A model generated the notes under the pieces. It was not told the origin of the DNA, did no database searches, and saw nothing but the letters and a program-made list of their open reading frames with translations. A stretch of 24,168 bases of DNA, from positions 1-24,168 of IMG/VR virus record IMGVR_UViG_3300042352_000176; one strand, given 5' to 3'. The position numbers were made by a program, and so were the translations under genes. This DNA is from a virus. Positions 10,432-19,517 of this stretch are shown one piece after another. Each line of letters starts with the position of its first letter. The stretch's first letter is position 1.

Positions 10432-10683
10432 ATGGCAGAAGTAAAAAACCAAAACACAATTGCGATTTTTAAAAACGCAGACAAGAAATCAGAAAAGAGT
10501 CCTGACTACAGCGGAAGCTTAGAAATCAATGGAGTAAAGTACAGAACAGCTTTATGGCTAAAGCAATCTAAGACAGGTACAGCCTTCTTAGGTGGATTAG
10601 TTGAGTTAGCTGAAGAGAAGCAAGCACCTGCTGCAGCTAAGCCTGCTTATCAGCCTGTAGTTAATGATGACTTGGGGTTCTAA
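10432..10683 (+). CDS. Small SSB-like protein with acidic C-terminal tip
   Basis: An 83-aa protein. The N-terminal ~58 residues are beta-rich (TIAIFKNADKK, YSGSLEINGVKYRTALWLKQ, GTAFLGGLVEL), resembling the compact DUF736-like/OB-type pattern. A flexible Ala/Pro linker follows, and the chain ends in NDDLGF. Bacterial SSBs end in a similar acidic-hydrophobic tip (DDDIPF) that recruits partner proteins. With the ERF/exonuclease pair nearby, a single-strand-binding role is plausible. The motif comparison is by eye and the fold is not proven. A strong terminator follows the gene. Confidence 0.5.
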   Translation: MAEVKNQNTIAIFKNADKKSEKSPDYSGSLEINGVKYRTALWLKQSKTGTAFLGGLVELAEEKQAPAAAKPAYQPVVNDDLGF

Positions 10684-10747
10684 TTAAAATCTATCCATTG
10701 ATACAACAATTAATAGATAGACTACAATTAACTAAAATTTAAGTAAT

Positions 10748-10775
10748 GGGGGTGCTTTGGCATCCCCTTCTTTTT
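10748..10775 (+). terminator. Rho-independent terminator abutting the resolvase start
   Basis: GGGGGTGC (10748-10755), loop TTTG, then GCATCCCC (10760-10767) form an 8-bp stem with one G-T wobble, followed by TTCTTTTT (10768-10775). The next base is the A of the ATG at 10776. The following genes therefore depend on read-through or antitermination, as no promoter fits between. Confidence 0.85.
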
Positions 10776-11225
10776 ATGAGAAAATTTAATGTCACAATAA
10801 ACAATATACCTAGCTACTTTATCGTTAGCAGGAAGAAGAGATACACATCTATGAATCTTTTCTATTCTAATACTCATTGGAGTGTAAGGAAAGGTGTTGT
10901 TGACAAGGCAAAGAAAGCTCTATCATTATTTATAGACAGGAAGTTATTTAATAAGAAGACAAAGAACAAGCTACTAATCAAGTATACGTATTCATCAAAT
11001 AAGACTACATTTGATATAGAGAATAGATTAGGTTTTTGGAGCAAGGTGTTTTTAGATTATGCGAAAGGCTCTAGCCTTGTAAAGGATGATAATGTAAAAC
11101 ACATAAGCTCTATTGTTTATGAATCGTACTACCATAAAGAAAAGGAAGACATACTTCAAATAGAAATATATGATATACCTAGCAAAGGTGACATTGGGGA
11201 TACCATCGGAGAAGATAGTGTCTGA
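10776..11225 (+). CDS. RusA-like Holliday-junction resolvase
   Basis: A 149-aa protein. The start was placed at 10776, because an ATG at 10746 would make the terminator stem-loop coding and add ten unsupported residues. The region TTFDIENRLGFWSKVFLDYA (77-96), followed by LVKDDNVKHI (101-110), has the RusA-family arrangement of acidic residues (Asp80, Asp94, Asp104/105) and the D-x-x-N block. These residues bind the metal ions that cut four-way junctions. The enzyme would resolve recombination and replication branches before packaging. The last ~15 residues overlap the next gene and are low in conserved features. Family identity is probable; overall similarity to E. coli RusA is low. Confidence 0.65.
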   Translation: MRKFNVTINNIPSYFIVSRKKRYTSMNLFYSNTHWSVRKGVVDKAKKALSLFIDRKLFNKKTKNKLLIKYTYSSNKTTFDIENRLGFWSKVFLDYAKGSSLVKDDNVKHISSIVYESYYHKEKEDILQIEIYDIPSKGDIGDTIGEDSV

Positions 11226-11400
11226 GATAGTTGTGACAGAAAAGTCTTTAATAGACTACGAACTGACGGAATACCAAAGGAACAGGGCTTTATCCTGTGC
11301 AGGAATAGAGAGAAAGACAAAGACAAAATATGATAAGTGGAAGGATGCTAGGCTCTTAAAAATAGATATAATCAAAGAGATAAAAGGCATAACAACATGA
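11170..11400 (+). CDS. Hypothetical protein (76 aa)
   Basis: A charged 76-aa protein without a recognised domain. The frame overlaps the resolvase gene by 56 bp from the ATG at 11170; a GTG at 11188 is an alternative start. It overlaps the downstream nuclease gene by ATGA, which supports it as a translated link between two nuclease genes. Confidence 0.55.
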   Translation: MIYLAKVTLGIPSEKIVSEIVVTEKSLIDYELTEYQRNRALSCAGIERKTKTKYDKWKDARLLKIDIIKEIKGITT

Positions 11401-11816
11401 TTCAACAAGAACCAGATGTGAAGTTCAGCGGATATGATATAAAGAATACCGCTCCAAAGAAAAAGTATGGCAACTTCAGGACTGACCTTAAAAGAGGCAG
11501 AGAGCAAGAGCAGATGGTGGCTGATGTATTTAATGGTAGCAAGTTTGAGGTTAAGTCAGACTACATGGCACACAGAACAGGCAACATAGCTATTGAGCTA
11601 ATGAGCAGAGGTAAAGAATCTGGAATCAATACTACAGAGGCTTGTCATTGGGTGTATAAGATTGTGTCGGCAGACTTGATACTAGTTATTACAACAGAAA
11701 AGTTGAAACGTTTTATAGAAGAAAATATGGATAAGTATAAGATTGTGATGGGTGGAGACAACAACACATCTAAGATGATTCTTATACCTATAAAAGACTT
11801 GATACTAATTAAGTAG
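11397..11816 (+). CDS. PD-(D/E)XK-type nuclease-like phage protein
   Basis: A 139-aa protein. RGREQEQMVADVF (33-45) gives an N-terminal Glu. KFEVKSDYMAHRTGNIAIEL (49-68) contains the ExK core (Glu51, Lys53) and the TGNIAIE strand, followed by GKESGINTTEACHWVY (72-87). This order is typical of small phage restriction-like/Hjc-like nucleases. It may cut branched or host DNA. It is the last plus-strand gene, and its stop is one base from the stop of a convergent minus-strand gene. Confidence 0.65.
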   Translation: MIQQEPDVKFSGYDIKNTAPKKKYGNFRTDLKRGREQEQMVADVFNGSKFEVKSDYMAHRTGNIAIELMSRGKESGINTTEACHWVYKIVSADLILVITTEKLKRFIEENMDKYKIVMGGDNNTSKMILIPIKDLILIK

Positions 11817-11817
11817 T

Positions 11818-12099
11818 TTACTTACGAGAGCTAAGTCCATTCCTGCCATTCCTTGCTCTATTCTTAGATTGACTCTCTCTAGTCAATGCGCCTCCTTTAG
11901 TGTGAGACATATCTTTCCCATCCCCATTACCATAGGTGCCTGCCTTTCTATTAGCTCTGTTAAGCTCAGCTCTATACTTCTTTCTTTCTTTGGTTGCATG
12001 ATATTTCTTGTCGTATTTTTTCTTACGTTCAATAGATTCCTTTGACCAATTAAGAGCGTTATAGCTTGGGTGCTTACCTGCTAACTTATTTTTAGACAT
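11818..12099 (-). CDS. Small very basic phage protein (93 aa)
   Basis: Highly basic, rich in Lys, Arg and Asn, with a helical middle (KKYDKKYHATKERKKYRAEL) and a C-terminal block KDMSHTKGGALTRESQSKNR. I recall similar SHTKGG...SKNRARN proteins in many phages, often near structural genes, without known function. It is probably a nucleic-acid-binding or packaging accessory protein. It is coupled to the holin-like gene by TAATG and is the last gene of the minus-strand arm. Confidence 0.6.
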   Translation of the reverse strand: MSKNKLAGKHPSYNALNWSKESIERKKKYDKKYHATKERKKYRAELNRANRKAGTYGNGDGKDMSHTKGGALTRESQSKNRARNGRNGLSSRK

Positions 12100-12284
12100 T
12101 ACTTCTTTTTAAGTTTTTTACTAACCCATCCTCCTATCTGTATGACTAGCCACACAAGGGATAACAATGTTACTAAGAATTGTAACACAGGGGTCATAGT
12201 CATTATGTTCATGTAATTAAGCCATGTTAATATGGTTGCTGGCACACCTACCATTCCTGATGCTTCTGATACTCCTTGACTCAT
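12099..12284 (-). CDS. Holin-like small membrane protein (61 aa)
   Basis: A 61-aa protein with a moderately hydrophobic N-terminal segment (about 10-28), a strong span (about 32-53, PVLQFLVTLLSLVWLVIQIG) and a basic tail (SKKLKKK). Size, layout and position directly after the endolysin gene fit a holin or pinholin. A second holin candidate sits on the other side of the endolysin, so either or both could set lysis timing. Confidence 0.55.
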   Translation of the reverse strand: MSQGVSEASGMVGVPATILTWLNYMNIMTMTPVLQFLVTLLSLVWLVIQIGGWVSKKLKKK

Positions 12285-12286
12285 TG

Positions 12287-12886
12287 TTAAGCTTTTAATA
12301 GATTATAATATTCTTTAAAATGAGCTATTCTATCAGCAAGACCGATAGTGCCTCCGTTAACCCTTTTTGTAATTTTAGTTACCACATCTTCTCCTGCACC
12401 TGTATCAGCTATTGCATTTAATCCGTTCTTACTCCAAAACCATGCAGCTGATAATAAAGGATATTTTGTAGCAACCAAATCAGGGTTTGCTTCAATGTTA
12501 TCTTCTACTGTTTTATCAAATGCTTGGTAGTTAGTTTTACCTGTTAATTGGATATAACCTCTACCACGAAACTTAAACCCATCTCCACTAGCCTGATTAC
12601 CATTACCCATTCTGTTTGCGTACACAATATTAGCAATCTTTTCTGGCTTACGTTGATATTCTTGTGCGCTTTCTGGTGTAAAGTATTTCTTAAAAATACC
12701 ACACAAACCTTTTGCGCTATAGTTTAAATTCTCTGTTGTTACTCTGAACCCACCACTTTCATGACCTGTTTGAGCTAAGAAATGAGCTAATCTCTGTGGA
12801 GTATTAACACCAAATTTAGTAGACACTTCTGGTATCTGATTTATTACTGAGTCTGGGATGTGACCTTTTAATCTATCTAGATTCAT
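12287..12886 (-). CDS. GH19 chitinase-fold endolysin
   Basis: A 199-aa glycoside hydrolase family 19 lysozyme-type enzyme that cuts peptidoglycan glycan strands. HFLAQTGHESGGF (35-47) carries the catalytic acid Glu43, with a second acidic residue at Glu52 (TENLNYS). FKFRGRGYIQLTGKTNY (104-120), ANPDLVA (133-139), AAWFW (147-151) and ITKRVNGG (172-179) complete the family pattern. No signal peptide is present, so it needs a holin to reach the wall. The gene is coupled by TAATG to the upstream holin candidate and followed 2 nt later by another. Its length is typical of single-domain phage GH19 lysins. All key residues are present. Confidence 0.9.
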   Translation of the reverse strand: MNLDRLKGHIPDSVINQIPEVSTKFGVNTPQRLAHFLAQTGHESGGFRVTTENLNYSAKGLCGIFKKYFTPESAQEYQRKPEKIANIVYANRMGNGNQASGDGFKFRGRGYIQLTGKTNYQAFDKTVEDNIEANPDLVATKYPLLSAAWFWSKNGLNAIADTGAGEDVVTKITKRVNGGTIGLADRIAHFKEYYNLLKA

Positions 12887-13131
12887 TATTTATCTTTTAT
12901 GTTCTTGTTACCAAATACAGCCTCTACACCTGTGATGCCACACATAGTCAAAGCTGTGTACATCAATCCGTTAAATACTATAGGCTCAATAACAAACGTA
13001 ATTCCTATTGCTCCTGTAACCACATCTGTTAGGGCATATATAGCCATTAACAGAAACGATACAAATCCTAACACAGCCTTTTGATTTATGTCAGACTTAT
13101 CGCTGAACATTCTAAGTAAAAAATCTTTCAT
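12886..13131 (-). CDS. Holin candidate (81 aa, two spans)
   Basis: An 81-aa protein with a charged N-terminus (FSDKSDINQK), a hydrophobic span at about 19-36, a second hydrophobic region at about 40-72 and a charged tail (GNKNIKDK). It lies directly before the endolysin and overlaps it by TAATG, the usual place for a holin. The sequence resembles small phage holins from Bacteroidota phages as I recall them, but topology is judged by eye. Confidence 0.6.
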   Translation of the reverse strand: MKDFLLRMFSDKSDINQKAVLGFVSFLLMAIYALTDVVTGAIGITFVIEPIVFNGLMYTALTMCGITGVEAVFGNKNIKDK

Positions 13132-13133
13132 AA

Positions 13134-13736
13134 TTATTTTATTTTCCAGTAAATAGATGCGTTAACAAACGGTGTCTTATTGATGTCAATTCCTGCTCCT
13201 ACATTGTATAGCTTATCACACTTTGTATTTAAAAGTAGATTTACCTGTACGTTGTTTACAAAGTTTACCTTGTCAAATGACGCTCCTACACCCCAAAATA
13301 ACTTGGTCTTAGGTAGCTCTTTAACAATGGTAGTCTCTTTAATAGTTCTTTGCTTCACATTAGCTGTGAACATCCTAGACTCAATCGTATTCTTACTAAT
13401 GGTGTCCAATAGTACAACATATCCTAAGCTGTCAGGTAAACGTAAGGTATCCTTGTATACATTCTTGGCGAAATACATTTTAATAATTTCTAATGTGTCT
13501 ACATTCATTGGGACTTGCACGAAGATTGTCGTATCGTGGTAGATGTCCTTACCTTGTTTGGTAATCACCTTAGTCTTAATAATGTCAACAGTATCTATCT
13601 CATGCTTAATAACCTCGTAAGGTTTACCTGCAATATATTTTATCTTAGGCGAGAATGGGTTTTTAACCCCTGTCATCTTTGAGAATATAAGACCGACAAC
13701 TATCACCAATACAGCACCCTGTAATATCTTTTTCAT
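13134..13736 (-). CDS. Membrane-anchored periplasmic protein of the lysis cassette (spanin-like position)
   Basis: A 200-aa protein. An N-terminal hydrophobic anchor (residues ~4-20, ILQGAVLVIVVGLIF) is followed by a beta-rich extracytoplasmic region with several Thr/Val/Lys-rich strands. It ends in a strand-rich segment (FWGVGASFDKVNF, NVQVNLLL, YNVGAGIDI, ASIYWKIK) like part of an outer-membrane barrel. It is the first gene of the holin/endolysin cassette. A link between inner and outer membrane, the job of spanins, would suit its place and shape, yet no classical coiled coil is seen. It may have its own promoter (TAAATTTG 5 bases upstream of the ATG). Confidence 0.6.
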   Translation of the reverse strand: MKKILQGAVLVIVVGLIFSKMTGVKNPFSPKIKYIAGKPYEVIKHEIDTVDIIKTKVITKQGKDIYHDTTIFVQVPMNVDTLEIIKMYFAKNVYKDTLRLPDSLGYVVLLDTISKNTIESRMFTANVKQRTIKETTIVKELPKTKLFWGVGASFDKVNFVNNVQVNLLLNTKCDKLYNVGAGIDINKTPFVNASIYWKIK

Positions 13737-13740
13737 ATTG

Positions 13741-13748
13741 CAAATTTA
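13741..13748 (-). promoter_or_regulatory. Possible near-leaderless promoter -7 box (TAAATTTG)
   Basis: On the minus strand TAAATTTG is followed by CAAT and the ATG at 13736. It fits TAnnTTTG, but no TTTG is found 19-21 nt upstream. It lies next to a palindromic operator-like region. Confidence 0.4.
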
Positions 13749-13783
13749 ATGAATAAAACTTATAGTGTATTTGCATGAGCTTG

Positions 13784-13820
13784 TAAGTCAATGTGACTTA
13801 TATGGGACATATATAAGTCA
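13784..13820. promoter_or_regulatory. Operator-like palindromes (TAAGTCA half-sites)
   Basis: Three half-sites occur: TAAGTCA 13784-13790, TGACTTA 13794-13800 and TAAGTCA 13814-13820. The first pair makes a 7-bp inverted repeat with a 3-nt gap. The second pair extends to a perfect 10-bp inverted repeat (TGACTTATAT / ATATAAGTCA) with a 7-nt gap. Half-site spacing of 10 and 20 bp places them on one helical face. The 240-bp gap 13737-13976 holds no gene. Confidence 0.55.
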
Positions 13821-13947
13821 AAAAGTGCTTTTTATGACACATTATACCCTTTCGCATATAAAATTGGAAATATACTTCTAATTATACGCAATAGAATATA
13901 AAATAGGTACAAATAAATTACATTTTAGATATATATTTCTAATTCAG

Positions 13948-13975
13948 TGCATGAAAAATCAGAAAAATTCATGCA
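13948..13975 (-). terminator. Hairpin just after the barrel-protein stop (weak terminator candidate)
   Basis: TGCATGAA (13948-13955) and TTCATGCA (13968-13975) form a perfect 8-bp stem one base beyond the stop of the 412-aa gene. The 12-nt loop is T-rich on the minus strand, but no T-run follows the stem. It could stabilise the 3' end or terminate weakly. Confidence 0.4.
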
Positions 13976-13976
13976 A

Positions 13977-15215
13977 CTATAGGTTAAACTTTGTTCCTAA
14001 CTGCAATCCAATTGTATGAAGCGGCCCCATGTATTTAATATTAGTTGCAAGTCTAAATCTCTTAGACAATGCTATGTCAAATGATGAGCCTAATATGTAG
14101 CTTAATTGACTCATAGATGTCAAATCCTTTGATTTACTTGTATAACTCAGTGGGTTAGACATTAAAAAAACCTCTGGTGTTATAGTCAATCTTTTGCTGT
14201 AAACGTATGGCTTCATGCCAAATAACACTATAGAAGAAGTCCAGAATTGTTGTTTTACAGCCTCAAATGGGATAGATGTATTAATAATAGTCAAGGCATA
14301 GCCATAAATGTATGACTTATGGGACATTACATATGATTTACCTAGTATATGTATGATGCCTCCATCATTATATGCCATTGTGTAAGAAGTTGTCCCTACG
14401 CCACATAAAGTCCCATTCTGAATATCCATCTTAGAATACCTTGTAGATAGGGCAAATTGTCTTAAATTTGAGAAGATTGTCAATGTAGAGCCGTAAGACA
14501 CGTCTCCTGCCATAGATGCTCTAGAAACGCCTAAATTTGCCATTAAATTAAAGTCACCTTGAAACTGCTGAACCGCACTCAAATCAGACGAAAAAATCAA
14601 TGGGGTTTGTCCTGCCTTTGCGGAAGACTTTTTCTTTTCCTCTTTCTTCTCTTCTTTCTTTTCTTCTTTTTTATCCTCGGATTTACTCTCAGATTTACTT
14701 TCAGAGGACTCAGAACTGCTTTCGCTAGAACTACCATCATTCTGAGACGAGCTAGAGCTAGAGCTACCATCACTCTGAGAGGAAGTTGGTTGGCTAGAAG
14801 GTGCAGAAGATGGCGCAGGAGCAGGAGCAGGAGTTGGAACACTTACACTGCTAGCAGCACTCGCAGCGGCACTTGATGCTGCTGAACTTACTGCTGCTGA
14901 AACTGAATTTGTTACCGTTTGCTGTGTTAATTGTTGAGTAAGTTGTGTAACAGGGCATGGCGCTGAATACTCTGCGTATACTTGATTTACCCAAGTCATT
15001 AAAGCACCTGACTTTACATCCTGAGCTGTTATGTATTTAGACTTACCCATAAACACAATTGTAGTACCTTGAATTGGCACTACAAAGACTGTGACCTTCT
15101 TGCTACATGGGTCTATAAATGTACTTGTAAGTATCTGCGCTTTTGCACTCGTCAATGAAAGTGTCAAAAGTGTACAGAATATCGTACGAAAAAGTGTTTT
15201 ATTTAGGGAATACAT
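13977..15215 (-). CDS. Secreted protein with Ser/Glu/Lys-rich linker and beta-barrel-like C-terminus
   Basis: A 412-aa protein. A signal peptide (residues 1-26, ending SAKA-Q) is followed by a small N-terminal domain (~27-90) with two Cys (37, 87) that could pair. Residues ~91-202 are low complexity: Gln/Thr, then Ala/Ser, Pro/Ala, long Ser runs and KEEKKEEKK repeats. Residues ~205-412 show alternating hydrophobic/polar strands (TLTIFSNLRQFALSTRY, SYVMSHKSYIYGYALTI, RLTITPEVFLMSN, FRLATNIKYMG, IGLQLGTKFNL) like an 8-10 stranded outer-membrane barrel. The gene overlaps the CsgG-like gene by 17 bp, so the two are probably translated together and may form one complex in the outer membrane. No virion role is evident. 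No named family is recognised. Confidence 0.65.
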   Translation of the reverse strand: MYSLNKTLFRTIFCTLLTLSLTSAKAQILTSTFIDPCSKKVTVFVVPIQGTTIVFMGKSKYITAQDVKSGALMTWVNQVYAEYSAPCPVTQLTQQLTQQTVTNSVSAAVSSAASSAAASAASSVSVPTPAPAPAPSSAPSSQPTSSQSDGSSSSSSSQNDGSSSESSSESSESKSESKSEDKKEEKKEEKKEEKKKSSAKAGQTPLIFSSDLSAVQQFQGDFNLMANLGVSRASMAGDVSYGSTLTIFSNLRQFALSTRYSKMDIQNGTLCGVGTTSYTMAYNDGGIIHILGKSYVMSHKSYIYGYALTIINTSIPFEAVKQQFWTSSIVLFGMKPYVYSKRLTITPEVFLMSNPLSYTSKSKDLTSMSQLSYILGSSFDIALSKRFRLATNIKYMGPLHTIGLQLGTKFNL

Positions 15216-15921
15216 TCTTTTTAATCATTCTTGATAGGATGCGAGCACACGCAATATCTAGTGCTTTCTTTGTTGCAGTTCCTATCGTTGACTGATTAAA
15301 TTTAACTTCACTAAGATTCTCGTCATTCAATAGGCTTGCTTCTCGTGTAGTTTTAGCTTCTCCCAATCCAGATGCAGCTATGATTTCACCTGTCTGCGCA
15401 TCCGTAAATCTTACCTGTAATCCTATTCTTGTGACAACAGTCTCCTTAATGCCATCTTTTACCCTAATCTCTTCATCTTCTGAAACAGAATAATCATAGC
15501 ACTCAATCTCAACAAAGTAATGTGCTAGTCTAATCTTTCCTCTTCCATCCAACTTATCTTGAGAAATTCCTGCTTGAGAGGCCTGGAATTGTTTAACCAT
15601 TCTATTCTTAATCTCAGTCTTGTCCTCCGTGAAAGTGAAGCGATTGAGGTTTTCCAGGTACTCCATAGAGATGTTTGCCACGCCCAAACCAACCCTCTTT
15701 TCCTTAAGTTCTGGATACATTTCATACATTTCGTCATTTATTCCGCATTTAAGTATTTGAATTGGTATAGTCGGCCCATCATAGTCCATGTACTGACTGA
15801 TGTCAATCTTAGTCTCAAAACTAGCTTTATAGTTCTCTGTCTTAGTTGTCGCTACCTGAGCTTGACCATTAATAAAGCAAAGGATTATAATTATGGTACA
15901 ACAAGATTTTATAATTTTCAT
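15199..15921 (-). CDS. CsgG-like secretion-channel family protein
   Basis: A 240-aa protein. The ATG at 15921 was chosen because it opens a clear signal peptide (MKIIKSCCTIIIILCFINGQ, cleavage near QAQ); the frame extends 22 residues further upstream without such logic. The mature part has the CsgG pattern: RVGLGVANISMEYLENLNRF, later FTDAQTGEIIAASGLGEAKT (a conserved pair of strands), and a C-terminal helix ATKKALDIACARILSRMI. CsgG forms the outer-membrane channel that exports curli subunits. The lipidation Cys of E. coli CsgG is not clearly present here. The gene overlaps the barrel protein by 17 bp and has a smaller CsgG-like relative at 18980-19444. The family call is probable, made without a profile search. 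Confidence 0.7.
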   Translation of the reverse strand: MKIIKSCCTIIIILCFINGQAQVATTKTENYKASFETKIDISQYMDYDGPTIPIQILKCGINDEMYEMYPELKEKRVGLGVANISMEYLENLNRFTFTEDKTEIKNRMVKQFQASQAGISQDKLDGRGKIRLAHYFVEIECYDYSVSEDEEIRVKDGIKETVVTRIGLQVRFTDAQTGEIIAASGLGEAKTTREASLLNDENLSEVKFNQSTIGTATKKALDIACARILSRMIKKNVFPK

Positions 15922-15922
15922 A

Positions 15923-15953
15923 TATCGCTCATTTAAATTATACTTATCGCTCA
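15923..15953 (-). promoter_or_regulatory. Direct repeat TGAGCGATA x2 before the CsgG-like gene
   Basis: On the minus strand TGAGCGATA occurs at 15953-15945 and 15931-15923, start to start 22 bp (two helical turns). The second copy ends one base before the T of the start region. It may be an operator, or alternative pairing partners for the CGGCTCA arm of the adjacent hairpin. No TAnnTTTG box was found in this gap. Confidence 0.45.
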
Positions 15954-15958
15954 AAAAT

Positions 15959-15985
15959 GAGCCGAATACGATTGATAAACGGCTC
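15959..15985 (-). terminator. Intrinsic terminator or attenuator between the small-gene group and the CsgG-like gene
   Basis: On the minus strand GAGCCG (15985-15980) pairs with CGGCTC (15964-15959) across a 15-nt loop, followed by ATTTTT. An alternative stem, GCTCA/TGAGC at 15949-15962 with an AAAA loop, uses part of the same arm, so the two structures exclude each other, as in attenuators. Confidence 0.5.
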
Positions 15986-16003
15986 AAGATTGATTGATAT
16001 ATG

Positions 16004-16027
16004 AGTCAGATTTTGCGGTTTCTGACT
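16004..16027. repeat. Inverted repeat AGTCAGA-N10-TCTGACT
   Basis: AGTCAGA (16004-16010) and TCTGACT (16021-16027) form a perfect 7-bp inverted repeat just after the stop of the 187-aa gene. The flanking bases on the minus strand (ATAAGTCAGA) repeat the TAAGTCA half-site seen at 13784-13820. Confidence 0.45.
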
Positions 16028-16034
16028 TATGTTT

Positions 16035-16598
16035 TTATTTATCTTTCAATAATCCACACTTTTGACACTCAAGTTCTCCGTCTCCGTCAGAATCTCCCCA
16101 CTCATGCTCACATTGTCTGTGTGCTTGGTATTCAAACTCTAACTTCTCCATCTCTTGTTCGTGTTCTTGTTGGTCTCTTTTAAGTTCAAAGTTTTGTCTG
16201 TTTTCTGTAACAGCTAAATCTCTAGCTGCAGCAGCTCCTTGAACAAATGCATCAGGAATGGTAGGGCCAAATGGCTTGTTAGTTTCTTTCATGTCATTTG
16301 TGTGAGACATAGAAACACCATCTTCTTCATCCATCTTCTGTACTAACATTTTATCCTTGTCTGTATCAGAGAACCAGTAGTCTATAATCTTACCATAGCT
16401 ACCAATAAAGGCACCCAATAATAACATTAATAACTCTTTCCATTCCCCTGCCATAGAAGCATTGTTAGATACTGCTACAAATATCCCTGCGATAATTAAA
16501 ATAAACCCACCAAGAACAGCAGCGGTAATATACCATCTGCGTTCCATCATTGCGTTTAAAAGTTCTTTAAAACCTGTTGGCTGTTTAGCGTTGTCCAT
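16035..16598 (-). CDS. Two-span membrane protein with coiled coil and zinc-ribbon end (3TM-holin-like)
   Basis: A 187-aa protein with two spans (about 22-43 and 53-70), the second containing LLMLLLGAFIGSYGKIIDYW, which resembles gene-transfer/3TM-type phage holins. After a polar linker comes a Gln/Glu-rich coiled coil (~132-160). The C-terminal zinc ribbon has ligands Cys163, His165, Cys178 and Cys181. The long cytoplasmic tail is more than a plain holin needs. It could be a holin with a regulatory domain or a membrane anchor for a phage assembly. A hairpin follows the gene. Confidence 0.6.
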   Translation of the reverse strand: MDNAKQPTGFKELLNAMMERRWYITAAVLGGFILIIAGIFVAVSNNASMAGEWKELLMLLLGAFIGSYGKIIDYWFSDTDKDKMLVQKMDEEDGVSMSHTNDMKETNKPFGPTIPDAFVQGAAAARDLAVTENRQNFELKRDQQEHEQEMEKLEFEYQAHRQCEHEWGDSDGDGELECQKCGLLKDK

Positions 16599-16699
16599 AC
16601 GTTATATATTACTTCTTGATTTTGTTTTACTAATTTACTCTTTTTAACACCTGAGCGAATACTTCGTTTCGCTTTAGGCTTTGACGTCTTCTTTGCCAT
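16556..16699 (-). CDS. Tiny basic protein (47 aa)
   Basis: A 47-aa frame starting MAKKTSKPKAKRSIRSGVKK, strongly basic at its N-terminal half. The start is 3 nt after the stop of the gene before it, and the 3' end overlaps the next gene by 43 bp. It could bind nucleic acid or anionic membrane surfaces. Too short for a firm call. Confidence 0.45.
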   Translation of the reverse strand: MAKKTSKPKAKRSIRSGVKKSKLVKQNQEVIYNVWTTLNSQQVLKNF

Positions 16700-16702
16700 A
16701 TA

Positions 16703-17002
16703 TTACCATTTAGGAGCCTCTTCCTTAAAATCATCGCCCTCTTTTTTCTTAGGAGTTGCAGCTGGCTTTGCAGGTTCTGACGCCTTTTCTTTAATGATAA
16801 CAGTCTTACCACCTCCTGCAGCTTGTTGTTGCGTTTGATTGATATTAATGACTGGAGCCGCTGTTTGTGTTGGGGTTTCTTTCTCATCTCCTCCTGTTAA
16901 TTTTGTTGTAATCCAACCACCTACTCCTAGAGTGATTGTGCTAATGAATCCTATGATAACATTTTTCATAGAACTACCTGTGCTTTCTTGTTCTTCTGCC
17001 AT
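16703..17002 (-). CDS. Single-span membrane protein with Pro/Lys-rich tail (99 aa)
   Basis: A 99-aa protein. A short polar N-terminus is followed by one hydrophobic span (about 13-34, KNVIIGFISTITLGVGGWIT). A long polar, Ala/Pro/Lys/Gln-rich tail (~37-99) follows. The tail is low complexity and may cross a wall or contact a partner. It starts 6 nt after the lipoprotein stop in the envelope operon. No family recognised. Confidence 0.55.
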   Translation of the reverse strand: MAEEQESTGSSMKNVIIGFISTITLGVGGWITTKLTGGDEKETPTQTAAPVININQTQQQAAGGGKTVIIKEKASEPAKPAATPKKKEGDDFKEEAPKW

Positions 17003-17008
17003 TGTATT

Positions 17009-17362
17009 TTATTTTATAATTATTGGGGTTCTAGTTTCTGAGCCATTTATATTCATCAAAATTAAGTCATATGTTCCACTTGCTAATCCAGTTAGGTTAT
17101 CCTGCTTTACCAATAAGCCATCTATTGAGCTTACCCCATAAGATTTGTAAACTTTACCGCTCATATCCTTGATTGTAACATTATACTTGATAGATGGTTG
17201 TAGGTTAAAACTCATTGTGATTTGACCTAATGTAGGTACAGGAGACACATTAACATACCCCTGTTTTTCAGGTGTTTTAGCTTGTTGCTCTGGATAATAT
17301 TGTATTTTTTTGCATGATACTACAAGCAATACTAAGCATGTGATGATACTGATTCTTTTCAT
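17009..17362 (-). CDS. Lipoprotein with T9SS type A-like C-terminal sorting domain
   Basis: A 117-aa protein. The signal peptide ends in the lipobox VVSC, with Cys17 lipidated. Lys-Lys-Ile-Gln after it lacks the acidic surface-export signal, suggesting a periplasm-facing outer-membrane lipoprotein. Residues ~36-117 match the T9SS type A C-terminal domain: YVNVSPVPTLGQITMSF (cf. the usual PNPxxGxhxh start), YNVTIKDMSGKVYKSYG, a Leu-x-x-Leu-x-x-Gly-x-Tyr turn (NLTGLASGTYDLIL) and TPIIIK at the end. In Bacteroidota this domain directs secreted proteins to the type IX machine. Lipid anchor and sorting domain on one short chain is unusual. It may act as a T9SS decoy or adaptor for the adjacent cohesin/dockerin protein, with which it overlaps by TAATG. 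The motif match is by eye but good. Confidence 0.7.
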   Translation of the reverse strand: MKRISIITCLVLLVVSCKKIQYYPEQQAKTPEKQGYVNVSPVPTLGQITMSFNLQPSIKYNVTIKDMSGKVYKSYGVSSIDGLLVKQDNLTGLASGTYDLILMNINGSETRTPIIIK

Positions 17363-19008
17363 TATTTAAAATTATTTATACCGATTAAACGAATCTGTGC
17401 AGTGTTTAACTTAATACCAACTTGATTACCTCTGTTATCAGACGCATCCATATTATCTGTTACCCATACATTAGTATTTATATCAACACCAGGCGTTAAT
17501 GCCTTGAATTTAATTGTAAATGGAATCGTTGTTCCAGATATAGGCTCTTTTAAAGTCTTATCTATACCACCAAACTTAACATACCCATTCTCGTTTGTAT
17601 AGAAGTTTAGCCAAGATGCGTTTGTATTGGCCTTTATTTCTTGCAACTGAATTTTAGTTGCATCATATGCAAACTCAAACTGCAATCCGCATAAGCTTAA
17701 TCCGTCTGAATTGATATTCATAGGTATAGATATATTATCAGACTCAATCACAGCATTTTCTAGGCTTACTAAAACAGCTTTTTTTACTATTGGAGTATTA
17801 ACCAATGAAAATGATTGGATTGTTCCATCTGTGGCTACAACCTGTGAGCTATGGCTTCTATTAATATCACCTGCAATTAGATAGTTTAAATCTAATGCTT
17901 GATTGGCAGTAGTAGTACGGAAATAGATAAAATTCTGAACTGGTAAAGTATCTTTACTAAAATCAGCTCTTTTATATGTGTATATATTAGGAACCATTGT
18001 CAGCGTATTGGCCACATGAGCCAATATCAAGTATGGGTCGGCAGCATCAAAAGAACCATTATAGTTAGCATCAGCAGCTAGCCAAGCAGCACCTGTCTTT
18101 AGGTTAGTCTTATTAAAAGTGCCATTTAGGTTAACAGAACCAAACTCATTTAAGGCGGCTGTAGCATCTGATACCGTAATAGCATTTTTAGCTACACTAG
18201 CGATACTATCTATACCAACTGATACTTTGTATGTTCTATTTGATGCAAGCTCCGTAGAAGCTTTAAAAACACCATTTACATCAGGATATAATAAAGTAGA
18301 TATTCCTGAAGCGGAGTCGGTAAACTTGATATTAGTCTGAACAGAAGGACTTTTATATATATTACCAGTAACCAAAGTATTAGCATTAGCGTCTAGTGTT
18401 ATGAATGTGCTTTTAGGTAGAGGCATATACGTATCAATATAAGTACCATCTGATTTCCAGCCAGATACAAAGTTCATATACAAACTATCATAAGCTGTTC
18501 CAGCTGTAGTTGCGTTTACCTTAATACGTATCCTGATATATTTCCCATTACGTAGATTACTATTTGAAGTAACTGTAGTATAGATTCTTTGGATAGCATT
18601 ATTGCTGCTTGGTGAATACGTATAGTTAGCATAGTTATAGTTCTGTGAACCATTTGTTGTTGTATTTTGAGCTGTTCTTTGATAGGTAAATCCTGGATGG
18701 AAGCTATTCTGAATACTCATTGTAGCATTTGCAGGCATAGCACTACTATCTCCACTAAAACTAGTTACACCTAATATAGTAAATGTTCTATAGTTATACT
18801 GAAAGTCAAAGTATAGCGTTCTGGTAGAAGATAGTTCCTCCTTATACATAACCACCATATCAACAGTGTCTCCCTTTAAGATAGACGTGTCCTTTATGTT
18901 CTTAGTTATATTAGACTTTTCTAAATATATTGTAGGAATCTGCGCATTTGTCACAAATATTCCAAAAATAGTGACAAGACTAAGGATTAATTTTCTCAAT
19001 AAGTTCAT
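17362..19008 (-). CDS. Secreted protein with cohesin-like and dockerin-like segments
   Basis: A 548-aa protein. Signal peptide (1-22, TNA-Q). Residues ~24-205 form a beta-sandwich-like domain with a cohesin-type start (SILKGDTVDMVVMY). Residues ~213-270 look like a carboxypeptidase-regulatory/Cna-B-type domain. Residues ~275-335 hold a dockerin-like pair: ITVSDATAALNEF (277-289), then DANYNGSFDAADPYLILAHV (313-332), with the Ca-binding Asp-x-Asn-x-x-Gly pattern. GDINRS (380-385) may be a third piece. Residues ~410-545 form a second cohesin-like domain (ISIPMNINSDGLSLCGLQFE, then FAYDATKIQLQEI). Such modules join surface complexes in bacteria. The T9SS sorting domain usual in relatives is absent here but lies on the next gene. 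The start overlaps the CsgG-like gene by 29 bp. Confidence 0.65.
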   Translation of the reverse strand: MNLLRKLILSLVTIFGIFVTNAQIPTIYLEKSNITKNIKDTSILKGDTVDMVVMYKEELSSTRTLYFDFQYNYRTFTILGVTSFSGDSSAMPANATMSIQNSFHPGFTYQRTAQNTTTNGSQNYNYANYTYSPSSNNAIQRIYTTVTSNSNLRNGKYIRIRIKVNATTAGTAYDSLYMNFVSGWKSDGTYIDTYMPLPKSTFITLDANANTLVTGNIYKSPSVQTNIKFTDSASGISTLLYPDVNGVFKASTELASNRTYKVSVGIDSIASVAKNAITVSDATAALNEFGSVNLNGTFNKTNLKTGAAWLAADANYNGSFDAADPYLILAHVANTLTMVPNIYTYKRADFSKDTLPVQNFIYFRTTTANQALDLNYLIAGDINRSHSSQVVATDGTIQSFSLVNTPIVKKAVLVSLENAVIESDNISIPMNINSDGLSLCGLQFEFAYDATKIQLQEIKANTNASWLNFYTNENGYVKFGGIDKTLKEPISGTTIPFTIKFKALTPGVDINTNVWVTDNMDASDNRGNQVGIKLNTAQIRLIGINNFK

Positions 19009-19444
19009 AGCAAGCCTTTTTTATTGCAGTTGTTAAATTTTGTTGATTGAACTTGCCGTCTGTTCCGACAAGTATTGTTGATGTTGACACCTCGGATGCG
19101 CTACCTTCTACCAAGATTGGCTTGCTTTTACTTCCGTCTTTGGAAATATACCCCTTGATTCTTATCACGACATCTGTATTGTCTTTATGGAATACTGATA
19201 GATTGCTTTTAGTCTTCACTACATCCATATAAATCAACTCGGCAAAGATAATATTTTTAGATTTTGGGTTAATTGAGTATCCTTTCTCTTGGATTATCTC
19301 TTCAATGATATTAGCTACACCAAACTCTATTTTTCTATTACCTGCCAAATCACCTAATTTAATGCTGTTTTGGACAGATATAGTCACATCTTGAGCCATA
19401 CTAGATGTGCTCAATATTAACAATAAATATAATAAGTACTTCAT
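18980..19444 (-). CDS. Small CsgG-like secreted protein
   Basis: A 154-aa protein. Signal peptide MKYLLYLLLILSTSSMAQ. The mature chain aligns by eye with the larger CsgG-like protein at 15199-15921: EFGVANIIEEIIQEKGYSIN (cf. LGVANISMEYLENLNRFTF), then IIFAELIYMDVV, RIKGYI, and the end FNQQNLTTAIKKACYELIEK (cf. FNQSTIGTATKKALDIACAR). It lacks about 90 residues of the larger form. It may be a partner or a shorter paralogue from gene duplication. It is the first gene of the envelope operon, with its own promoter only 4 nt before the ATG. Confidence 0.6.
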   Translation of the reverse strand: MKYLLYLLLILSTSSMAQDVTISVQNSIKLGDLAGNRKIEFGVANIIEEIIQEKGYSINPKSKNIIFAELIYMDVVKTKSNLSVFHKDNTDVVIRIKGYISKDGSKSKPILVEGSASEVSTSTILVGTDGKFNQQNLTTAIKKACYELIEKINP

Positions 19445-19448
19445 AATG

Positions 19449-19456
19449 CAAAGGTA
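19449..19456 (-). promoter_or_regulatory. Promoter -7 box TACCTTTG, near-leaderless
   Basis: On the minus strand TACCTTTG (19456-19449) is followed by CATT and the ATG at 19444. A TTTC lies 21 nt upstream, one mismatch from the -33 box, inside the loop of the preceding terminator. Transcription would start at or next to the ATG. Confidence 0.65.
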
Positions 19457-19463
19457 CTAAAAT

Positions 19464-19488
19464 AAAAAAGCCCTGTAGAAACAGGGCT
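19464..19488 (-). terminator. Rho-independent terminator after the 152-aa gene
   Basis: On the minus strand AGCCCTG (19488-19482), loop TTTCTA, CAGGGCT (19475-19469) form a perfect 7-bp stem, followed by TTTTTATTTT. It ends transcription from the promoter at 20027-19996 and insulates the envelope operon. Confidence 0.9.
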
Positions 19489-19517
19489 CGGAAATAACCA
19501 TATGTATGTCAGTCGTA

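Follow-up and report, generated by a model that had tools for sequence, protein, structure and literature searches.

A conserved phage cassette of exported envelope proteins in Bacteroidota viruses, with a possible role in surface display before lysis

This work describes a cassette of seven minus-strand genes at positions 13977-19444 of a 24,168-base virus record (IMG/VR record IMGVR_UViG_3300042352_000176; this whole stretch is referred to here as the window). The cassette encodes exported and membrane proteins, among them a cohesin protein, a lipoprotein with a sorting tail of the type IX secretion system (T9SS), a protein with a predicted CsgG fold, and a predicted outer-membrane barrel. 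Tail-fibre genes precede it in the window's phage, and it is followed by a gene for a 200-amino-acid (aa) protein, a holin-like gene, and a GH19 endolysin gene. In order, the open reading frames (ORFs) of the cassette and the three genes that follow are:

18980-19444, minus strand: small CsgG-superfamily-like exported protein of 154 aa, the first cassette gene (signal peptide; family profiles)
17362-19008, minus strand: exported cohesin protein of 548 aa (PF00963; calcium-loop motif)
17009-17362, minus strand: lipoprotein of 117 aa with little beyond a T9SS type A sorting-like domain (TIGR04183; lipobox)
16703-17002, minus strand: 99-aa protein with an N-terminal hydrophobic stretch and a Pro/Lys-rich tail (topology from sequence)
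16035-16598, minus strand: 187-aa protein with what look like two membrane segments, as in holins, and a Cys/His motif at the C terminus (segments from sequence)
15199-15921, minus strand: exported protein with a predicted CsgG fold, 240 aa from the ATG at 15921 (AlphaFold2 model; profiles)
13977-15215, minus strand: predicted 12-strand translocator-type outer-membrane barrel of 412 aa (AlphaFold2 model)
13134-13736, minus strand: 200-aa protein with an N-terminal hydrophobic segment and a strand-like C-terminus (adjoins the lysis genes)
12886-13131, minus strand: small holin-like protein (name from sequence only)
12287-12886, minus strand: GH19 chitinase-type endolysin (PF00182, 41.2 bits)

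An initial annotation of this stretch had singled out five exported ORFs as a phage-encoded envelope module: two CsgG-like proteins, a cohesin/dockerin protein, a T9SS-domain lipoprotein, and a barrel-like protein. All five exist on the minus strand, with signal peptides and a lipobox readable in the sequence, and the five-protein set is real and part of a conserved cassette; two membrane-protein genes (16703-17002 and 16035-16598) had been omitted. The description of the genes as nearly all linked by overlaps holds for three of the six junctions, which overlap or touch (18980-19008, 17362, and 15199-15215), the others being gapped by 6, 104, and 113 bases. The 240-aa gene is listed as 262 aa if counted from an upstream TTG. 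The 99-aa protein has a weak match to phrog_24719, a family without assigned function (E of 1.3e-4), and the 187-aa protein has no Pfam or NCBIfam match above cut-off. The 200-aa protein could be a single-protein spanin candidate.

The set of genes is a conserved phage cassette, often beside lysis genes, in many Bacteroidota viruses. Viral loci with the 240-aa gene were collected in two scans, each giving its best 80 matches; these yielded 161 loci, of which 82 had full flanks and 40 remained after removal of near-duplicates. In all 40, cohesin and 99-aa genes lie upstream and the barrel gene is present, and the small CsgG-like gene is found in 38 (one of the two loci without it, L055, shares a contig with L214, which has it). 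Within the flanks, a holin-like gene is present in 29 loci, GH19 in 20, the 187-aa gene in 20, and a separate T9-type gene in 19. Families were defined by iterated profiles built from the same loci, on which remote members depend, and clustering by pairwise blast served as a check. By this clustering of 893 ORFs, the only families present in all 40 loci are the cohesin, 99-aa, 240-aa, and barrel families; the next clusters are the holin-like (28 loci), T9-type (25), GH19 (20), and 187-aa (20) families, followed by clusters in 13 and 10 loci that are described below. In 154 of the 780 locus pairs the two loci have only core families in common; the other 626 pairs also have a noncore family in common, with holin-like and GH19 genes counted as noncore. 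A synteny search had been proposed with the initial annotation, and the viral loci show the gene set kept together.

The same picture is obtained reciprocally with the small CsgG-like gene as bait, which gave 38 full-flank loci among its best 80 matches (near-duplicates kept). Cohesin, 99-aa, and T9-type genes accompany it in all 38, the barrel gene in 36, the 240-aa gene in 34, holin-like in 37, GH19 in 32, and the 200-aa gene in 25; three of the four loci without the 240-aa gene lie on contigs where another locus shows it. Pairwise distances across the 40 loci are correlated most highly for the two CsgG-fold proteins and the barrel (r of 0.85 to 0.92). Correlations with cassette proteins are 0.62 to 0.72 for the cohesin protein, 0.62 to 0.68 for the 99-aa protein, 0.57 to 0.69 for GH19, and 0.29 to 0.41 for the holin-like protein.

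Two accessory families account for the clusters in 13 and 10 loci. The first is an exported-looking family of ∼150 aa with an HESxH motif, which lies beside the cassette on either strand (e.g., L121:5115-5570, L155:11718-12170, and L164:12372-12818) and is absent from the window; its members are possible zinc peptidases. The second is a DNA/RNA nonspecific endonuclease with a signal-peptide-like start, located ≤1.5 kb from cassette genes in 8 of its 10 loci; among the genes at L022:7025-7657, L067:3480-4133, and L088:9935-10513, PF01223 was matched in two.

The 240-aa family is confined almost entirely to viruses. Viral contigs gave at least 572 stretches that match it, compared with one of 299 genomes of one bacterial family, the one being G001, the genome that had led us there. 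A scan of bacterial genome contigs by peptide patterns found two loci with the family, both on contigs of metagenome-assembled genomes (MAGs); because both have most or all of the cassette together with a GH19 gene, they are probably phage DNA in MAGs. A host origin of the family was considered and is thought unlikely, as none of the 298 other genomes carries it; CsgG proper is present in 16 of 60 genomes of that bacterial family. Among 50,697 phage records, the sole relative of the 240-aa protein is that of Flavobacterium phage immuto (four records; host Flavobacterium sp. LMO8), whose cassette lies at 10,527-16,409 and is annotated as lectin, cohesin, and otherwise hypothetical.

Exact 60-base probes taken from the reverse complement of the window map in order onto a 73,267-base contig (the contig behind L005). 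The ends of this contig repeat, with ORFs of equal length and start recurring 66,072 bases apart; it is probably a complete genome with duplicated ends, and the repeat unit therefore gives a phage genome of ∼66 kb. The contig encodes a terminase and a portal, the latter 26% identical to the portals of Flavobacterium elemo phages. None of the nine cassette families tested (the 187-aa family was outside the test) was found in the elemo phage with the related portal, whose record is labelled partial. The carriers of the cassette are thus diverse, ranging from a 66-kb relative of the elemo phages to the 160-kb immuto.

Export signals are concentrated in the cassette. Using a crude rule for starts of the signal peptidase I (SPI) or lipoprotein (lipo) type on the 40 loci, such starts were called in 35 of 38 small CsgG-like proteins, 62 of 64 cohesin proteins, all 40 of the 240-aa proteins (36 SPI and 4 lipo), and 42 of 43 barrels; 22 of 28 T9-type proteins have lipo-type starts. 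For comparison, the rule called SPI- or lipo-type starts in 74 of 404 other ORFs of ≥100 aa. The lipobox Cys is invariant among 52 aligned members of the T9-type family, and a similarly crude rule detected the hydrophobic stretch in 28 of 40 of the 99-aa proteins. With the conserved linkage, these signals bear out the initial description of a phage-encoded exported envelope module that is unusual as a set.

Structure modelling, which had been suggested at the outset, was run on the 240-aa and 412-aa proteins and predicts a CsgG fold and a 12-strand barrel, respectively. The AlphaFold2 model of the 240-aa protein (predicted local distance difference test [pLDDT] of 77, predicted template modelling score [pTM] of 0.69) aligns to CsgG (4uv2) with a VIA-align Z of 12.3 and a root-mean-square deviation of 3.1 over 151 residues. 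In a Foldseek search, chains of CsgG or of the curli complex fill the top 22 rows (E from 4.9e-7), and Cj1090c, PelC, and LptE types are among those ranked below the CsgG rows. Comparison of the 240-aa family with CsgG by hhalign gave 84.6% in local and 94.5% in global alignment, and a BFVD search returned a phage CsgG as its top row, the remainder being mostly unrelated. Single-sequence searches are less telling: neither window protein matched the CsgG profile, and PF03783 gave no match for the window's 240-aa protein and matches in 2 of 58 relatives at E ≤0.1 (best 1.9e-4), compared with 3 of 58 in an unrelated family. The 240-aa family profile had no match among PDB chains up to E of 10.

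The 240-aa protein is predicted to have the CsgG fold and does not qualify for the curli channel family. At what we take to be the place of the first pore hairpin in CsgG, the family is ∼5 residues shorter than Escherichia coli CsgG and acidic, with a long hairpin in the model (strands 135-153 and 157-174). The presumed second hairpin region is ∼10 residues shorter, and the model forms no hairpin there (pLDDT of 59 to 67). Among the 58 members, no Cys occurs in the invariant or nearly invariant columns, with Cys in at most 11 of 58 in any column before 115. CsgE, CsgF, and curlin repeats were found in none of four records (the window, the 73-kb contig, a 317-kb contig, and immuto), some of which may be fragments; the E. 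coli control was detected. A curli-type export system is therefore not supported: the family lacks a conserved N-terminal Cys, the model shows no hairpin in the second region, and the four records yielded neither CsgE or CsgF nor curlin repeats. As far as the model goes, the 240-aa protein may form a pore through its single long acidic hairpin, and the 412-aa barrel is the better candidate for spanning the membrane.

Of the two proteins initially called CsgG-like, the 240-aa protein keeps that label by profiles and model, and the 154-aa protein is tied to CsgG only indirectly. Its family matches the 240-aa family at 97% in profile comparison and CsgG at 2.7% in direct comparison, for which reason the small protein was rejected as a CsgG. 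Fifteen of 45 members match PF03923 at E ≤0.1, which we take to be the Lipoprotein_16 family of YajG type; the family profile gave only chance-level rows against the PDB.

The 412-aa protein, initially described as barrel-like, is predicted to be a 12-strand translocator-type outer-membrane barrel. Its AlphaFold2 model (pLDDT of 73, pTM of 0.55) consists of an N-terminal alpha/beta domain with two invariant Cys, an Ala-rich helix at residues 88-121, a disordered linker, and strands at 206-411 (12 long). Foldseek ranks FapF first, with KdgM and NanC also among the matches; in VIA-align, FapF (Z of 17.5) falls behind NalP (Z of 21.3) and other autotransporter translocators, for which reason it was rejected as a specific relative. 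The family profile retrieved no FapF from PDB chains up to E of 10, its matches lying mainly in the low-complexity linker. This linker varies widely in length among relatives, and in the window its Lys/Glu-rich segment contains a 12-base tandem repeat (14631-14678). A separate, shorter barrel-type gene (∼297 aa) lies between the cohesin and T9-type genes in L030, L031, L034, L249, and L252.

In the 548-aa protein, the cohesin domain (residues 424-525) is matched by PF00963 at 31.2 bits against a cut-off of 24.1. The dockerin part of the initial assignment comes down to one calcium-loop motif (residues 313-324) and weak matches. For comparison, relatives were chosen by hand: 23 fused proteins (picked as fused or full-length) and 47 nonfused ones. 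Cohesin is matched in 17 of 23 fused and 16 of 47 nonfused proteins. The calcium-loop motif occurs in 24 of the 47 and 7 of the 23, compared with shuffled means of 0.15 and 0.055; Dockerin_1 is matched in two fused and no nonfused proteins at E ≤0.001, and a PDB profile match to the ScaH dockerin is weak (E of 0.018). The T9SS tail (TIGR04183 and PF18962, E ≤0.001) is present in all 23 chosen fused proteins. The 548-aa window protein has no T9SS sorting domain of its own, the domain being carried by the next gene (17009-17362). The link to T9SS is nevertheless firmer than the initial annotation could know, as cohesin and T9SS parts form one protein in other phages. A complete want of family matches, named beforehand as grounds for abandoning the annotation, did not materialize: the matches hold in part. 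The other ground named beforehand, homologues in purified virions as ordinary tail proteins, found no evidence here, where no virion proteome was examined.

Between close relatives, the 240-aa protein is the most conserved cassette member and the N-terminal part of the cohesin protein the least conserved of the parts compared; for L009, for instance, the values are 90% for the 240-aa protein, 79% for the small one, and 28% for the cohesin N-terminal part. To judge by these alignments, the latter has been swapped or has strongly diverged.

Taken as a whole, these results lead us to give even chances to a phage-specific, probably late envelope cassette that, ahead of lysis, exposes a cohesin-type adhesin of exchangeable kind at the surface of infected cells. 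The displayed proteins would probably stand on the infected-cell surface and, in some phages, bind sugars. Surface display near the end of infection would agree with the exported machinery, with an adhesin-like protein that is exchangeable and bears a T9SS tail, and with lysis genes as frequent neighbours; the late timing we infer from the position of the cassette only. Among the jobs first proposed for the module—lysis aid, surface remodelling, superinfection exclusion, and export of a surface protein—surface display best suits the modular domains.

This reading builds on what was observed (conserved and linked genes, signals for export, domain matches, and fusion of the T9SS tail) and on the two predicted folds; the complex, export route, timing, and purpose that we infer from them would be as follows. 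All cassette parts would pass through the host Sec system. The two CsgG-fold proteins would lie on the periplasmic side of the outer membrane, possibly arranged in a ring, and would join the 12-strand barrel in an outer-membrane assembly, which the 99-aa protein would anchor to the inner membrane. The cohesin protein (with a lectin or PA14 head in some other phages) would cross the outer membrane by the host T9SS and/or the barrel assembly, the sorting tail being fused to it or, as in the window, placed on a separate lipoprotein. Outside, it would coat the cell by attaching to surface glycans and possibly to itself through dockerin-cohesin contacts. Such a coat might spare progeny from loss on debris, keep other phages off, or hold neighbouring cells. 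A bolder version, which we regard as doubtful, is a virus-exclusive secretion and display machine: a CsgG-fold ring under the barrel, tied by the 99-aa protein, would export a head-to-tail polymer of the cohesin/dockerin adhesin (lectin-tipped in some phages), partly by the host T9SS, and some phages would also send out the nuclease and the HESxH protein. If true, this would be a secretion system kept by phages and not by cells.

Several observations weigh against surface display by an exchangeable adhesin. Recognizable heads are a minority, with Lectin_C in 10, PA14 in 7, and GLEYA in 2 of the 47 chosen nonfused cohesin proteins, and the head of the window's own cohesin protein has no Pfam match. 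The T9SS assignment of the lipoprotein, which the initial annotation had made, is marginal: TIGR04183 is only just over its cut-off (23.6 bits against 23), PF18962 is under (21.8 against 27), and 8 of 52 family members are matched at E ≤0.01. Export of the cohesin protein by the T9SS is therefore unproven in the window, where the sorting-like domain sits on that separate lipoprotein. The T9-type lipoprotein (28% in L010) is also no less divergent than the cohesin head, and fast change alone is therefore no mark of a binding head. Joint inheritance may explain much of the distance correlation, because GH19 correlates about as well as the cohesin protein. Finally, the endolysin gene of immuto lies ∼5.7 kb beyond the cassette.

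The main rival is an aid to lysis, in which the CsgG-fold proteins and the barrel would breach or weaken the outer membrane as infection ends and the exported nuclease and HESxH proteins would clear debris. In its favour, many loci have holin-like, 200-aa, and GH19 genes next to the cassette, one long hairpin is kept in the 240-aa model, and some loci have the exported nuclease and HESxH genes; the authors of the methylophage Melnitz paper (PMC9004378) also raise regulation of lysis as a possible role of phage curli genes. It leaves the lectin heads, cohesin, dockerin-like loop, and T9SS tail unexplained, however, and the second pore hairpin is not formed in the model; moreover, a spanin candidate already adjoins the cassette in some loci, and only 20 of 40 loci have GH19 in their flanks. 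We consider a lysis aid unlikely. Lower still, and quite improbable, stands the view that the exported-looking proteins are virion parts, i.e., tail or capsid decorations. Lectin-like and Ig-like folds do occur in phage fibres, and in the window's phage tail-fibre genes lie ahead of the cassette, but in immuto their place is taken by ribonucleotide-reductase and nuclease genes; signal peptides on nearly all members (by the crude rule), a predicted outer-membrane barrel, and a lipoprotein also argue against virion parts.

A curli-like (type VIII) secretion system, with the cassette as a phage curli operon making fibres as in pelagiphages, is slightly less credible than the virion view. The CsgG fold of the 240-aa protein would agree with it, as would the CsgG/CsgF modules that pelagiphages carry (PMC7029224 and PMC9599517); set against these are the four records without CsgE, CsgF, or curlin repeats, the nonconserved N-terminal Cys, and the short second hairpin region. 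Least probable of all, and hardly to be expected, is nutrient or polymer uptake, with the barrel and ring importing something useful during infection: the oligosaccharide porins KdgM and NanC are among the barrel's matches, but so are many other 12-strand barrels, lysis genes often lie nearby, and exchangeable adhesin-like parts do not suit import.

Surface display thus remains our preferred reading, and the cassette can be set beside several known systems. The curli modules of pelagiphages and Melnitz likewise place a phage-encoded CsgG-fold protein in a conserved exported gene set. Those modules have CsgF, and in pelagiphages also curlin repeats (PMC9599517), neither of which was found with the cassette; conversely, the cassette has a translocator barrel and cohesin/T9SS proteins, and the hosts differ. 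Sibling capture has been proposed for pelagiphage curli (PMC7029224) and a lysis role for the CsgGF of Melnitz (PMC9004378). Cryophage, like the cassette, encodes proteins that bear sorting domains of T9SS type A, and one of them has PA14; three variable T9SS cargo genes are reported for it (an endoglucanase, a GH39, and the PA14 gene), so that phage T9SS cargo has already been reported (PMC7468147). The words CsgG, cohesin, and curli are absent from the text of the Cryophage paper (PMC7468147).

At the level of single proteins, FapF and autotransporter translocators such as NalP share with the window's barrel the 12-strand barrel, a helix, and a periplasmic N-terminal part. The plan reported for FapF is a coiled coil, disordered linker, plug helix, and 12-strand barrel (PMC5557850). 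The window's barrel differs in having ∼8% identity to FapF/NalP and an alpha/beta N-terminal domain with the two invariant Cys. PelC, LptE, and other CsgG-fold accessory proteins resemble the 240-aa protein as CsgG-like domains at the outer membrane beside a barrel partner; they stand lower than CsgG in the structure ranking, and partner and substrate differ. Closest in proposed effect is Llp of T5-like phages, a surface lipoprotein of the infected cell that blocks superinfection and presumably debris loss (PMC4728585). Llp is a single lipoprotein, compared with a multigene envelope cassette of putative function here, and a masking role for the coat would by analogy take Llp as its model.

The set as a whole seems undescribed: no publication on the combination was found in the literature searched, which was without preprints and most subscription journals. 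The cassette is widespread, at ≥572 stretches, yet in immuto its members carry no annotation beyond hypothetical, cohesin, or lectin. If it displays exchangeable adhesins before lysis, it would be a widespread means by which Bacteroidota phages manage the surface of their hosts, and immuto would offer a cultured test system for why phages carry CsgG-type modules.

Expression signals were also inspected. A terminator-like hairpin lies just upstream of the cassette (19468-19489, minus strand; 9 pairs, 5 of them G-C, then a T-run); terminator-like sites in the region number 6 against 4.1 expected, so this hairpin is weak. A TANNTTTG box, which we take to be of the Bacteroidota -7 type, lies at 19449-19456 (minus strand), four bases from the ATG of the small CsgG-like gene, and a second one at 13741-13748 (minus strand), four bases before the ATG of the 200-aa gene; the two boxes suggest leaderless transcripts. 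The full TTTG-gap-TANNTTTG pattern occurs five times in the window against 0.96 expected, at other places. Among the loci, a count admitting any ATG within the first 46 codons and a box ≤10 bases from the start found a box at the small gene in 4 of 38 cases, at the 200-aa gene in 4 of 7, and at the 187-aa gene in 2 of 20, with none at the cohesin (64), T9-type (28), 99-aa (40), 240-aa (40), barrel (43), holin-like (28), or GH19 (19) genes; the background is 155 of 13,956 ATGs (1.1%). These signals weakly suggest that the cassette is one transcription unit in the window's phage group. Elsewhere in the window, positions 354-1361 have a weak class II glutamine amidotransferase match (22.7 bits against a cut-off of 23), with cysteine pairs further on.

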